Source: Byssochlamys sp. IMV 00236 (taxonomy: Eukaryota > Ascomycota > Eurotiomycetes > Eurotiales > Thermoascaceae). From it: DNA of 64,000 bases. The notes under the pieces were generated by a model that was not told the origin of the DNA, did no database searches, and worked only from the letters and a program-made list of their open reading frames with translations. The stretch spans positions 1 through 64,000 of the forward strand of contig MSJH02000808.1 in NCBI GenBank assembly GCA_001931875.2, in the 5' to 3' direction. The position numbers and the translations under genes are program-made. Of this stretch, positions 12,568-19,962 are shown one piece after another; the stretch's first letter is position 1, and every line of letters begins with the position of its first letter.

Positions 12568-13940
12568 ATGGTTCAGACACGCAGAAGCTCTAGAAAGGCC
12601 ACAAAGGATAAGGGTGAACAAGAGAATACAACCCATGACAAAGAAGCTCATGAGCAGGATAGGAATGGGTCATCTGCAGCGTCTGCGCATCCCAGTGTTC
12701 CTGACGCTGGGGTTTCTGCCACTGCCAATGACTCTACCGCAGCTATGTCGAAGCAAGGAGCTCCTAAGAGCCCTCAGAAGAAGATCAAGTGGAGAGGTGC
12801 GCCGAACGATGATGACTTGACTGCATACCATCCGGAGCAAGTTGACTGGAGCATCGACAATCTGCCAGAGATCATTTATGTCTTGAGGCCCACGGCTAAG
12901 CACGCCAAGTCAAGGGCCGAAGTCCCCAAGACGACATATGAGATTTTCGGCCAGGTTGTGAATGACTTCCCAGTGCTGCCCCGTCAGATCTCTTCACGAG
13001 TGGAAGGATGGAGATGCGAGGCCTGGTCTCGCATGGATCGTCGCATCACGCCGGAGGATATCGTAGCGCGCGTCAATCCTAAATATCAAGTGACTGCCTC
13101 TGATATCGAGATGCGCCGATACCGTTTCAGACAGGGATTCAATCTGGGTGCTTGGGGTTCTGGATCATCCATCGCTGCCGCCGCACGTATTCTCCAGAAA
13201 CACGGAATTGATCCTAAGCTGAATAGCACGAGGGGATCAACTCCCGGCCTCATCAGGCCTGAGCTCGGAGAAGCGGGTGGACGTATCCCGTTAACCAATC
13301 CTTGCCCCAACTATGATACAGTGAACCCTCGTCGTTCCAGACAGCGTTTCCCTCTGGGCTATCTTCCCACCCCTAGCCCGGCACCAAATGAACCAAGTGC
13401 ACCGCCTAGCAAGCCGAAAGAAGAGGACGAAACTGCCCATAGTACGAAGGCAGAGGGCGAAAAGGATGTGGTCTTCGATTCGAAGAGGTAAATCTCTGAG
13501 ATGATCGCCTGTTGTAATATTGAGACTAAACATCTTTCAGCAGCGAATCTACTCCGCCCTCCTTGACCAAGGAAAGCCTGGCCCCTGTCCAGGAGATCTA
13601 TAACAACTTCCCATCGTATCCGGATCCTGAGGAGTACGAGCTTGCCCATCATCGTGGGCCTCCTGCACGTGCCTTCCAGAAAGAGACAGAGGAAAAGCAC
13701 ATGACCATGACCTTGGAGGAATACTTGCAGCACAACAATCTCACCTACGAACAATACCTGGAACGGGAGAATGAGCCTCGTGCTCGGAAGAGGCGTAGTC
13801 CGATGCTGTCAAATGGTGACGTTTGCATGTCCCTTAGTAAACGTCTCCGCCACTCTATTGAGGGGCCCCTGAAGAGCTCTGACTCCGAAATGGACGAGAC
13901 TGCGAGTGAGATCCTTGGTAAATTCAAAGGCGATCCTTGA
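12568..13940 (+). CDS. uncharacterised protein, paralog family member A
   Basis: Two exons (12568-13487 and 13541-13940) joined in phase 2 give 439 residues. I do not recognise a named domain. Residues about 1-70 are polar and low-complexity. A core of about 170 residues follows, beginning VDWSIDNLPEIIYVLRP and continuing with FPVLPRQISSRVEGW, EAWSRMDRRITPEDI, MRRYRFRQGFNLGAWGSG, and NSTRGSTPGLIRPELGEA directly followed by GGRI. The core is rich in Arg and aromatic residues and predicted helical, so nucleic-acid or protein binding is possible but unproved. The C-terminal part is acidic/proline-rich, then has a basic ARKRRS stretch that could act as a nuclear signal. The same core occurs in the next gene and, more diverged, in the third. 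It is the left member of a three-gene same-strand array. Confidence 0.8.
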
Positions 13941-14676
13941 ATAGGAAATGAATAATGGACGGTGGCTGGGTGAGCAAAGATGTTGAACAAAGAAACAGGG
14001 TGTGGGTCGAGATCTGAATGGAGAGTGGCAATGGCAGGTCAATAACAATAGGATTTTAATGTAGCATGTTGCGAGTTTCTAGGTAGTCAAAATTAACGCC
14101 GCTCACCACTTGAACGCAGGCCATCTTTTCATCCGTAGAGCAGGGTATATAGAAGATAAAGTCTGTATATGCTCCAGAATATCATCGAAAGTACTTCTAG
14201 ATTGTTCTTCGTATAGTATATACCTATAACCAATTGTTATGTACTTACCTGAGTCGTCGAGTCGAGGTTTTTGTATCGTTTCTGTTCTAGCGCAGTGGCA
14301 GCCAGAGCAAAATAACAAGTCTAGGAGCGCACTCTCCGTTAATCTATGTTCAACGTTATCATAGCCAGCCTTCCTATAAAAAAGCCTCAAAGAGAAGTGA
14401 ATAGACTGCCCTACCAGCCACAGGTTTTATAGATCTTTCCTTAGGAGAAGGTAAAATGGATCTTTCTCCTAGACTTCTTCTCCTAGACTTCTTCTCCTGC
14501 AATTGCAGAGCGTACCTTCTCCTGAACATCAAGATCACCATCCTACATCGTTTTGAAGAAGAAATAGCTGTTCACTGCGTTGTTGAGCTTCGACTTCAGA
14601 TCCCGTTCCATATCCGAATCAAACTTGTACAATTCTCTTTGGAAAGCGTTCCTATCGACATCAGAAAGGAGTCAAT
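13941..14676. other. spacer between paralogs A and B
   Basis: No gene is supported. The 95-codon minus frame at 14103-14390 has no recognisable feature. A 14-bp-period direct repeat (unit TCTCCTAGACTTCT, about 2.4 copies) lies at about 14465-14498, upstream of paralog B. Confidence 0.4.
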
Positions 14677-16268
14677 ATGCTTCTGAACGAACCCTTTGAC
14701 TTCAACATGGAACTTGCCATGGGAAATGCCGGCAACGGAGCGATGTCTTCTATCTCTTCTCTCCGTAAGCTGATATATCCTGACGGTGCAGAGGTATAGG
14801 GCTAATTGTATGACAGAGTCTTTTGACGCTCATACTGGCATTGCTATGAACAATGGGGGCAGCGACCTTTTCTCTTCTGACCCTACTCTCCGTAAGTTGA
14901 TATACCTCCAGTAACGCACGTATACAGGGCTAATAATATTGGCAGACCCTTTCAACACCAACTTTGACTTTGCGTTGAGCAATGTCGGCAACGGACCTTC
15001 TTCTGCTGGTCCTGTTATGCGTAAGTCGATATATCCCAACGATGTAGACACATCGAGCTAATTGAAGAACAGAATCCTTCAAAACCAACTTTGACATTGT
15101 CATGAGCGATGTTGGAAAAGGGCCTCTCTCCGCTCCTCCTGCTTTGCGTAAGTTAACGTATTCCGTTACACATCTCCAGATATTGGGCTAACTTACTGCC
15201 TTTGACAGAGTCCTTCCATTGCAACCTGAACATTGCTGCGAGAAATGTCGGCAACAGAATGCTTTCTCCTAACCCTGCTCTGCGTGAGTTAATACATCTC
15301 AACGATGCAGTTATCAGTTATATAGGGCTAACCGTACTTCTCCTGACAGAGTCTTCCATCAACACCAACACAGATATTGCTATTAGCAATGGCGGAAACG
15401 GAACAAGCTCATCTATTCCTCCTCGGCGTAAGTTTGCATATCTCAAGGATATATATACAGCGCTAACTGTACGGCAACAGAGGCGAAAGCCCCTCGACAG
15501 CACAGCGTCAGGGCAGTCCACGATCCTCGCAACGTCACTGAGTTCCGTCAGGACCAGGCAGATTGGTCTTGGGAGAATCTCCCAGACATTCTCTATACTT
15601 TCAAACCCCCAAGAGCTCCAAGACAGCCAGAACCGGCGACAATGTTATACCAGATCCATGGCCAGTTCCTTCGTCACCTCCCCATCCTTCCGGACTGTAT
15701 CTCATCCGACGTCGAAGAATTCCGCGTTGAAGCCTGGATGCGTCTCGATAGGCGTGTCCGTCTCGTCGATATCACTCAGCGTATGCATCCCGAGTTTCGA
15801 ATCAAACCAAACGCTCTTCAGCAGCGTGGTGTCCGGTTCCGAAAGGCATTCAACATGCTGGCATGGGGATCCGGAAATAAGAAGACGCTGGAAACCGAGG
15901 CCGAATTGGTCAATAAGATGCGCGGCTGTGGAATCGACCCCGGCGTCAATTCCACTCGTGGAATGACGCCGGGGTTGATCCGTCCTGAACTGGGCGAGGC
16001 CGGGGGTAGGATTGCTCTCCCCGAGCAGTACAGCAGACGGTCTTTGGCTCCGGCCAGACCTGTGCCCGTTGTTGGTACAGATGCCGGGGACGGTAATGGG
16101 GGGGTCGTTAGCCTCTTCGAAGAGGCCATCGCGGCCTGCCTTTGGAAGGCCGTCGATAGGGAGGCGGCGACCCCTCCAACCGCCTTCGACCTCGGCATCG
16201 AGGCATATCTTGCCCACGACAAGATAATGAGGGCGATGGGGGCGGGGATGGCAGATGAAGTTGTTTAA
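14677..16268 (+). CDS. uncharacterised protein, paralog B: six tandem phase-1 mini-exons fused to the family core
   Basis: Seven exons: 14677-14764, 14817-14891, 14946-15020, 15073-15147, 15209-15283, 15350-15427 and 15481-16268. All six introns (52-66 nt) are phase 1. Exons 2-5 are each exactly 75 nt, exon 6 is 78 nt, and the last 75 nt of exon 1 form a sixth repeat unit. The product is about 417 residues. Residues 5-155 are six degenerate copies of a 25-residue repeat with consensus like SFNTNFDIAMSNVGNGPLSS then xPAL and Q. The large last exon carries the same core as gene A: DQADWSWENLPDILYTFKP, LPILPDCISSDVEEF, EAWMRLDRRVRLVDI, AFNMLAWGSG, NSTRGMTPGLIRPELGEA and GGRI. The start ATG at 14677 has A at -3 and runs into the first repeat. 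Function is unknown. A poly-pyrimidine tract follows the stop codon immediately. Confidence 0.75.
14690..15480 (+). repeat. tandem exon-plus-intron repeat array, six units of 127-141 bp
   Basis: Units are 14690-14816, 14817-14945, 14946-15072, 15073-15208, 15209-15349 and 15350-15480. Each is one 75-78 nt exon segment followed by one intron. Exon parts share a FD.. to NVGNG pattern and end in CTCC, ATGC, TTGC, CTGC or CGGC before the donor. Intron parts share GTAAGTTGATATATC near the 5' end, a CAACGATG-like middle in several, a GGGCTAAY branch-site region and a GACAG or AACAG acceptor. Homology in both parts indicates duplication of whole exon-intron units rather than separate intron gains. 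Confidence 0.88.
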
Positions 16269-18213: not shown

Positions 18214-19962
18214 ATGGTATTGAGCGCAAAAGACACTCCCAACCTCCCGAAGATGGAGGCTGGTAAAGAAGAGTCTGGAGATAAGAGGTCCCACAACTCG
18301 AAGGTGGCTTCTGCCTCTCAGTCAGGTTCTGGTATGATGGACCGCACATGAAACTCGACGAAAGAAAGTGGCTGATGTGTTATAGCGAACCACGCGGACA
18401 CCCCTGTCTTCTGTCCTCGTAAGTTGCTGCTTATATGTGTAGAATTATGACTGACATCTGTAGATACCAAGATCCCGGACTGTCTTCACACATGCACCCA
18501 TCCCTACCATTCGTCCTATTCGGAAGGATTTCTACCTTCGTTGATTTTCAGGTTGGATACTTTGGTTACTGTGAAGCAGTCGTTCTTGGGTCTTCTGATT
18601 GAAAACGGAAAGACTGTGGAGGATGCAGATGGAGTCCCGATACGGGACTTCCCTTTCCTTCCGCGCTACATATCGGTCAAAGTATCAGGATGGCTGCTGG
18701 AATACTGGATGCGCACCGATACTCGATTGACGTATCGAGATATCAAAGCTCGCATGACTGCTCCAGCGAGCGAACTTCCCTTGGATAACACCCTCAATAT
18801 GCGTCGAGAGCGCGAGGCTCGCACTCCATTGAAGCTTTCATGTCTCACCACTCGTCGTGGACAGATATCGAGGAAGGAGGTTGAACGTGTTGAATCTTGG
18901 ACCCCTGACCAGGTATCCTATAATACCACAATGGACATCGAATACGAATTGGTCGGAGGAAAGAAGGTTCCGTCTCGTCTGCGCTCGAAAACTTTGACCT
19001 CTTCAGAGCCCCGCTGTTACCCCTTGGATACGTTCCTTGACGGTAGGCAGATTCACACGCCAGGCCCACGTATCATGGAGACTATAGAGCTCTTCTATCA
19101 GCTCTCAGATACTGCGACTGCCTTGAATCTGCCATCATGGGTCGACCTCCCTCTGGAGTATCTTCCGACTTCTTGGAAGCCACGCTCTTTCCCCTCCAGG
19201 ACTAAATCTGGACCACGGCGCAAGTACATGACAAAGCACATCACCCTGGAAGATGATGATACTGTGGAGCTCAACAGTGATACTGAGCAAGATGAGAATG
19301 GAACACCGTCAACCGGTGAGGTAGACGATAAACGGAACACCGCAGAGAGTGCGCGGTCGATATATGACACGGAATATGAGAGAGAATTGCTGAAGTTCTC
19401 AGGGCTTCCTGTTGCGACGTGGTATAACGACTCTCTACGTCGTCCTGTATATGGCCAACATGATACTACCCAGCCCAGCGTATCTCAGTCCATCCTACCG
19501 TGGACCCCAATCAACGGTCACAAGAAGCAAGAGTCGCCAGTGGCGGATATGGAGCGTCCCATTAACGCGGTCACAGAACTGGTCAAGATGGAACGCTCGA
19601 GGTCGCAATTTGGACGAGCAGTCCGGAACGAAACATCGCGTAGAACATTCTCCCCTTTCGAGTCATCCGAACATGGACAATTCTACGAAGACGCTCTGAA
19701 AATGAACCCAGACGCAGAACTTCCATTCTCCTTGTACGAAGAACCAATCTGGTTCAATCGCTACCGCTTCAACAGCACGGGGCCTCACTCCATCAGGAAT
19801 GACAGGAACCACCCATTGAATACTCACACTTTCGAAATCATGCGTCGCAACAATCCGTTCTTGCCCGAGAACTTGTACAACGACTCGCTGCCTGATTCTT
19901 TCGAGCAGTACCTCAATGACTCCATCAGACGCTTTCAGGGTAGTGTCTATCCTTCTCCTTGA
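18214..19962 (+). CDS. uncharacterised protein, paralog family member C (diverged)
   Basis: Three exons (18214-18331, 18386-18418, 18464-19962), both introns phase 1, give 549 residues. Exon 2 is only 33 nt. The start ATG at 18214 has good context (ACAATGG). The protein opens with a polar Ser/Lys-rich stretch, then the family core in diverged form: DTLVTVKQSFLGLL, FPFLPRYISVKVSGW, EYWMRTDTRLTYRDIKARM and MRREREARTPLKLS, which align position by position with genes A and B. The STRG..TPGLIRPELGEAGGRI block of A and B is missing. The C-terminal 300 residues are unrelated to A and B by eye: acidic/Ser-rich, then a region rich in Asn/Pro/Phe ending DSIRRFQGSVYPSP. No named domain was recognised. 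The two 5' introns are needed because the large open frame has no ATG at its 5' end. Confidence 0.7.

Follow-up and report, generated by a model that had tools for sequence, protein, structure and literature searches.

A tandem array of six exon–intron units ahead of a conserved domain in a predicted Byssochlamys gene

The closest described counterpart of the locus reported here is the leucine-rich repeat (LRR) gene system of Tetrahymena, in which arrays of 90-bp exons are described with phase-2 introns, and the authors regard the duplication of intron/exon units as one kind of exon shuffling (PMC6564038). Introner families, as reported in PMC9860276, are sets of similar introns spread over many genes. 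Intron gain through tandem duplication of exonic sequence is the subject of a review (PMC3443670), and in the SP7-like effectors of arbuscular mycorrhizal fungi a conserved intron is described as preceding the first repeat (PMC11333574).

The window analysed here is a 64,000 nt stretch of DNA from Byssochlamys sp. IMV 00236 (contig MSJH02000808.1), and it contains an array that resembles the Tetrahymena LRR genes, as these are described, in being made of tandem exon–intron units with a constant coding length, a single intron phase, one peptide repeat per unit and a split codon at each junction. Three criteria of the Tetrahymena kind can be read from the array: consecutive exons of near-equal length that are similar to one another, one phase throughout under the gene model, and introns that are alike beyond their splice signals. 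The Tetrahymena authors propose unequal crossing-over of exon–intron units, one of the two routes that we propose here. Their system, as set out in that account, is that of a ciliate, with thousands of genes, an LRR fold, phase-2 introns and an association with a retrotransposon, whereas the fungal case is one six-unit array in one gene, in phase 1 and predicted to encode a disordered region, and the genome search turned up no further copy of it. A Pfam scan of the 417-aa protein returned no family up to E = 1, leucine-rich repeat included, and we rejected classification as a Tetrahymena-type LRR gene on this basis and on that of the Ser/Asn/Gly-rich composition of the array.

As in the introner families, which are reported in ascomycetes too (PMC9860276), there is a set of similar introns; unlike introners, the alike introns found here sit inside one array, beside equally similar exons. 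The SP7-like effectors are likewise fungal proteins with imperfect repeats, 6–11 units by the published description (PMC11333574), but in the present gene a putative intron accompanies each repeat, a comparison made by description only. The original prediction for this locus held that no fungal family built in this way had been described. Keyword searches of the literature found no fungal gene with an exon–intron-array build, which leaves that statement uncontradicted although it is weak evidence of absence; the principle itself had already been published for the Tetrahymena LRR genes (PMC6564038). We regard the design principle as known from ciliates, and the fungal six-block array as a variant for which our limited search found no earlier fungal case.

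Gene model and likeness of the units

The tandem exon–intron array is real, and spans positions 14690–15480 of the plus strand. It consists of six units of 127–141 bp, each a coding piece (75 or 78 nt) followed by a phase-1 intron (52–66 nt), as had been predicted from the letters of the sequence (Table 1). Exon 1 opens with the start codon at 14677 and is longer than its repeat unit, and the last intron is followed by a large seventh exon. The seven-exon model gives a predicted protein of 417 residues. From the sequence, we infer splicing of six introns, all six in phase 1 under the model and every one with a GCTAA branch-like motif. The encoded modules follow a degenerate consensus of 25–26 residues, roughly [SP]F..N.[DN]IA.[SN]NVGNG..S..P.L, and the array is rich in Ser, Asn and Gly. 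Upstream of the start codon, at 14464–14498, lies a perfect tandem repeat with a 14-bp unit in 2.5 copies.

Table 1. Features of the array gene and its neighbouring paralogue; the first and last positions of each putative intron are its donor site and acceptor end
Feature	Position	Strand	Length	Remarks
Paralogue, gene 1 of tandem pair, without array	12568–13940	+		One putative intron, ~13488–13540
Repeat unit 1	14690–14816	+	127 bp	Unit 1 coding part (75 nt) and intron 1
Repeat unit 2	14817–14945	+	129 bp	Exon 2 and intron 2
Repeat unit 3	14946–15072	+	127 bp	Exon 3 and intron 3
Repeat unit 4	15073–15208	+	136 bp	Exon 4 and intron 4
Repeat unit 5	15209–15349	+	141 bp	Exon 5 and intron 5
Repeat unit 6	15350–15480	+	131 bp	Exon 6 and intron 6
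Exon 1	14677–14764	+	88 nt	Start codon and unit 1 coding part; P0002 aligns from residue 1
Putative intron 1, phase 1	14765–14816	+	52 nt	
Exon 2, unit 2	14817–14891	+	75 nt	
Putative intron 2, phase 1	14892–14945	+	54 nt	
Exon 3, unit 3	14946–15020	+	75 nt	
Putative intron 3, phase 1	15021–15072	+	52 nt	
Exon 4, unit 4	15073–15147	+	75 nt	
Putative intron 4, phase 1	15148–15208	+	61 nt	
Exon 5, unit 5	15209–15283	+	75 nt	
Putative intron 5, phase 1	15284–15349	+	66 nt	Multiple of three, no in-frame stop
Exon 6, unit 6	15350–15427	+	78 nt	
Putative intron 6, phase 1	15428–15480	+	53 nt	
Exon 7	15481–16268	+		Conserved domain (~190 aa) and C-terminal tail; stop codon 16266–16268

All the exon parts are open and are multiples of three in length; four of the six introns are not. 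Conceptual retention of any of introns 1–4 brings in an early stop, and retention of intron 6 a frame-shifted end, while conceptual skipping of any single exon from 2 to 6 keeps the downstream frame. The frame survives the gain, loss or skipping of a block because the blocks share a phase-1 split codon at both ends. Retention of intron 5 would insert 22 residues and keep the frame.

Repeat finding without the gene model recovered a 95-nt repeat in six copies that spans the exon/donor junction. Identity to the reference copy is 62–73% for the remaining five, and copies 2–5 also take in the last three bases of the preceding intron. Tandem Repeats Finder, which is described as missing copies less than about 70% alike, did not report the array. 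The original prediction had proposed self-comparison of the region as a check, and this bore it out: the units are significantly alike, and an offset scan (60–599 bp, in 90-nt stretches) confined similarity of this kind in the window to the array, with no matches in a shuffled window. A unit profile gave 94–110 bits for the six units, which are high by construction as the profile was built from them, and at most 5 bits for everything else in the window.

In global alignments between units, pairwise identity was 0.58–0.74 for exons and 0.56–0.73 for introns. The mean score of the intron pairs stood at z = 19 against 500 shuffles, and at z = 13 with donor and acceptor trimmed. With the splice signals removed, 281 of 512 positions in the intron interiors were identical (0.549), against 0.355±0.039 for shuffled sequences with the signals kept, none of 100 being as high; it should be noted that alignment inflates identity, the shuffle null of 0.355 comparing with 0.267 expected from composition. 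The predicted resemblance among the introns is thus upheld outside their splice signals. None of 20,000 random sextets drawn from 25 intron-like sequences of the window reached the mean score of the array introns although, taken singly, 6 of the 15 array intron pairs scored inside the range of 300 control pairs. Shuffles, random sextets and the offset scan together rule out chance or composition as the source of the likeness.

The unit profile gave no match before 14690 that would represent a seventh, decayed unit, and a profile spanning intron tail and exon extended upstream to 14681 and no further. The 25 nt before unit 1 were no closer to the intron ends than shuffles were (p = 0.116; none of six local tests significant), and derivation of the start codon from an intron end is offered purely as a thought. 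Comparison of the introns with the 677 nt upstream gave a score reached by 16 of 200 shuffles. The introns showed no resemblance to the intron of the neighbouring gene, compared as a stretch without its first two bases (85 of 200 shuffles reached the score).

Relatives of the protein and their modules

A search of 5.8 billion proteins returned 105 relatives, and a second search with another member enlarged the set to 143. The closest deposited proteins are from Paecilomyces variotii: P0001, which is 96% identical across 94% of the query, and P0002 (P. variotii DTO271G3), which is 91% identical across the whole query. From these matches we infer that the source organism belongs to P. variotii or stands close to it. 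The six modules of P0002 align without gaps. P0001 represents a cluster of 12 member sequences, of which the representative alone was compared; five modules and part of the first are aligned gap-free, the deposited start falling inside exon 1. Intron-encoded residues are absent from both proteins, and we therefore take both models to splice like the present gene. Identity with P0002 is 0.90 in the array and 0.94 in the core, and with P0001 0.91 and 0.99, respectively.

For P0003, from P. lecythidis, the corresponding values are 0.33 and 0.81. We read this protein as carrying a diverged array of five putative modules, recognized by junctions of the L[QH]-[SP] type or similar. The best matches of its first and last modules are modules one and five of the present gene (z 6.4 and 6.0), the matches of the others are weak, and periodicity in P0003 is modest (z 4.2). 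A protein search with the array alone (E up to 10, 214 candidates) returned P0001 and P0002 only, and was too insensitive to recover even P. lecythidis.

The exon 7 domain is common to the present gene and its wider family, and the array was found in Paecilomyces members only: the Thermoascus, Aspergillus and other deposited relatives inspected have the conserved domain, and such an array was not found in them. Some deposited relatives begin right at the domain, and it is possible that their N-terminal exons were missed by gene prediction. Some other family members have unrelated internal repeats in their flanks. N-terminal flanks of at least 45 residues were available for 48 of the 143 relatives, and internal periodicity exceeded z 10 in five of these (P0001, P0002, P0094, P0109 and P0116); among C-terminal flanks, six of 143 were above the same value. 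In P0094, from Polytolypa hystricis, a 22-residue repeat of unrelated sequence occupies about residues 1–70, the same N-terminal place. Repeats appear to expand readily in the flanks of this family. No orthologous DNA was found when viral contigs were scanned with a profile of the family.

In the AlphaFold2 model of the orthologue P0002, residues 10–146 have pLDDT values below 50, and residues from about 171 to 340 are mostly above 90. The array is accordingly predicted to form a disordered tail ahead of a folded domain. That the tail serves as a flexible multivalent linker or interaction region is a guess. The best local alignments of the core domain to Aspergillus members are 44–64% identical, and we take the family that holds this domain to be spread over Eurotiales and Onygenales. 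Some members are named Clr5 domain-containing by their source. The Clr5 domain (PF14420) was absent from the eight Pfam families matched by any of 57 members up to E = 0.1, and we rejected this identity; the name comes solely from the sources of some members.

The array gene is the second of a tandem pair. Its neighbour lacks the array, and is 43% identical to the array gene over query residues 138–337. We picked five pairs of relatives whose locus tags are neighbours, and in all five gene 1 was the nearer for one member and gene 2 for its partner. To judge from these comparisons the tandem pair seems old, and appears to be conserved in Aspergillus species. An open frame of 473 aa at 18541–19962 is a distant third family member nearby. 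It matches the array gene at 38% over 47 residues (E 0.24), and its best match among the 143 proteins is P0096, at 230 bits, the runner-up scoring 37 bits.

Origin of the array and its significance

We consider it highly probable that the six-block array was gained ahead of the conserved domain by tandem duplication, with phase-1 blocks that would be spliced into a disordered modular tail. One exon–intron block would have been duplicated repeatedly in tandem, by unequal crossing-over or replication slippage between blocks, to give six blocks 5' of the domain. The phase-1 split codon shared by the block edges would have kept the reading frame at each gain or loss, and splicing would join six modules into the Ser/Asn/Gly-rich tail. 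In all six units, the copies stay in register across the exon–intron boundaries. Exon identity between units is 0.587, 0.739 and 0.547 at codon positions 1, 2 and 3, respectively, from which we conclude that the exons carry some coding constraint; at the level of amino acids this constraint appears mild. Divergence in the intron interiors is close to that at third codon positions. Between units, the distance matrices of exons and introns were uncorrelated (Mantel r = −0.24, p = 0.81) and therefore give no order of duplication; we argue for co-duplication from overall likeness.

Alternatively, a peptide repeat may have come first, and one mobile intron, an introner-like element, may then have spread by copying to the equivalent site in every repeat. 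The likeness of the introns among themselves is consistent with this, as is the reported occurrence of introners in Pezizomycotina (PMC9860276). In the genome, the start pattern of introns 1–3 also has 61 one-mismatch matches against 42 for the reversed control, although several have the same position on different contigs and assembly redundancy may add to the 61. However, the genome scan found exact copies of the pattern in those three introns only (it does not fit introns 4–6), and a DNA query with the whole array against the genome (47.4-Mb assembly, 840 contigs) matched itself alone. Block duplication gives the simpler account of six introns that share a position and a phase and show third-position-like divergence; we regard introner copying as improbable.

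Less probable still is a pseudo-array, decaying or untranslated, for which the deposited models would be artefacts. The array gene is known from sequence alone, and dN between units is 0.28–0.60 and exceeds dS in two of 15 pairs, consistent with such decay; in the other 13 dN is below dS, which is near saturation. Against it, the exons are open, the frame is kept, codon position 2 is the most conserved, and the modules are kept in the deposited P. variotii proteins and diverged in that of P. lecythidis. Derivation of the introns from former coding sequence, through tandem genomic duplication of exonic AGGT-bearing sequence, is a route listed for several eukaryotes including Cryptococcus (PMC3443670), but is hardly credible here as the introns resemble neither the array exons nor the C-terminal exon (scores reached by 51 and 167 of 200 shuffles, respectively).

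We prefer duplication of whole blocks both to the copying of introns and to their AGGT-type creation. The original proposal that entire exon–intron blocks were duplicated in tandem to form a modular repeat region is most likely correct, given the likeness of both exons and introns, the third-position-like divergence of the introns, their dissimilarity from the exons and the lack of another exact genome copy of the intron 1–3 motif.

Repeat-induced point mutation (RIP) is reported to be active in P. variotii (PMC6300479), and may favour diverged, short blocks. The indices TA/AT and (CA+TG)/(AC+GT) were 0.90 and 1.21 for the array, 1.29 and 0.85 for the introns alone, and 0.37 and 1.74 for the exons; these values establish no RIP mark that would identify it as the cause of unit divergence.

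We speculate that the repeat could be tuned by splicing, its donors, acceptors and phases being interchangeable on this view. Exon skipping would yield fewer modules in frame, gain or loss of blocks would alter their number between species, and splicing and recombination would together vary how long the disordered tail before the conserved domain is. We consider this unlikely.

The array overturns no principle. If the gene model holds, it represents a small, clean ascomycete case of introns and exons multiplying together, in which introns of common origin lie side by side in a single gene. The array would be useful for timing exon–intron duplication and intron divergence in a genus in which RIP is reported to be active (PMC6300479), and for asking whether interchangeable phase-1 exons are skipped, varying the length of the protein.
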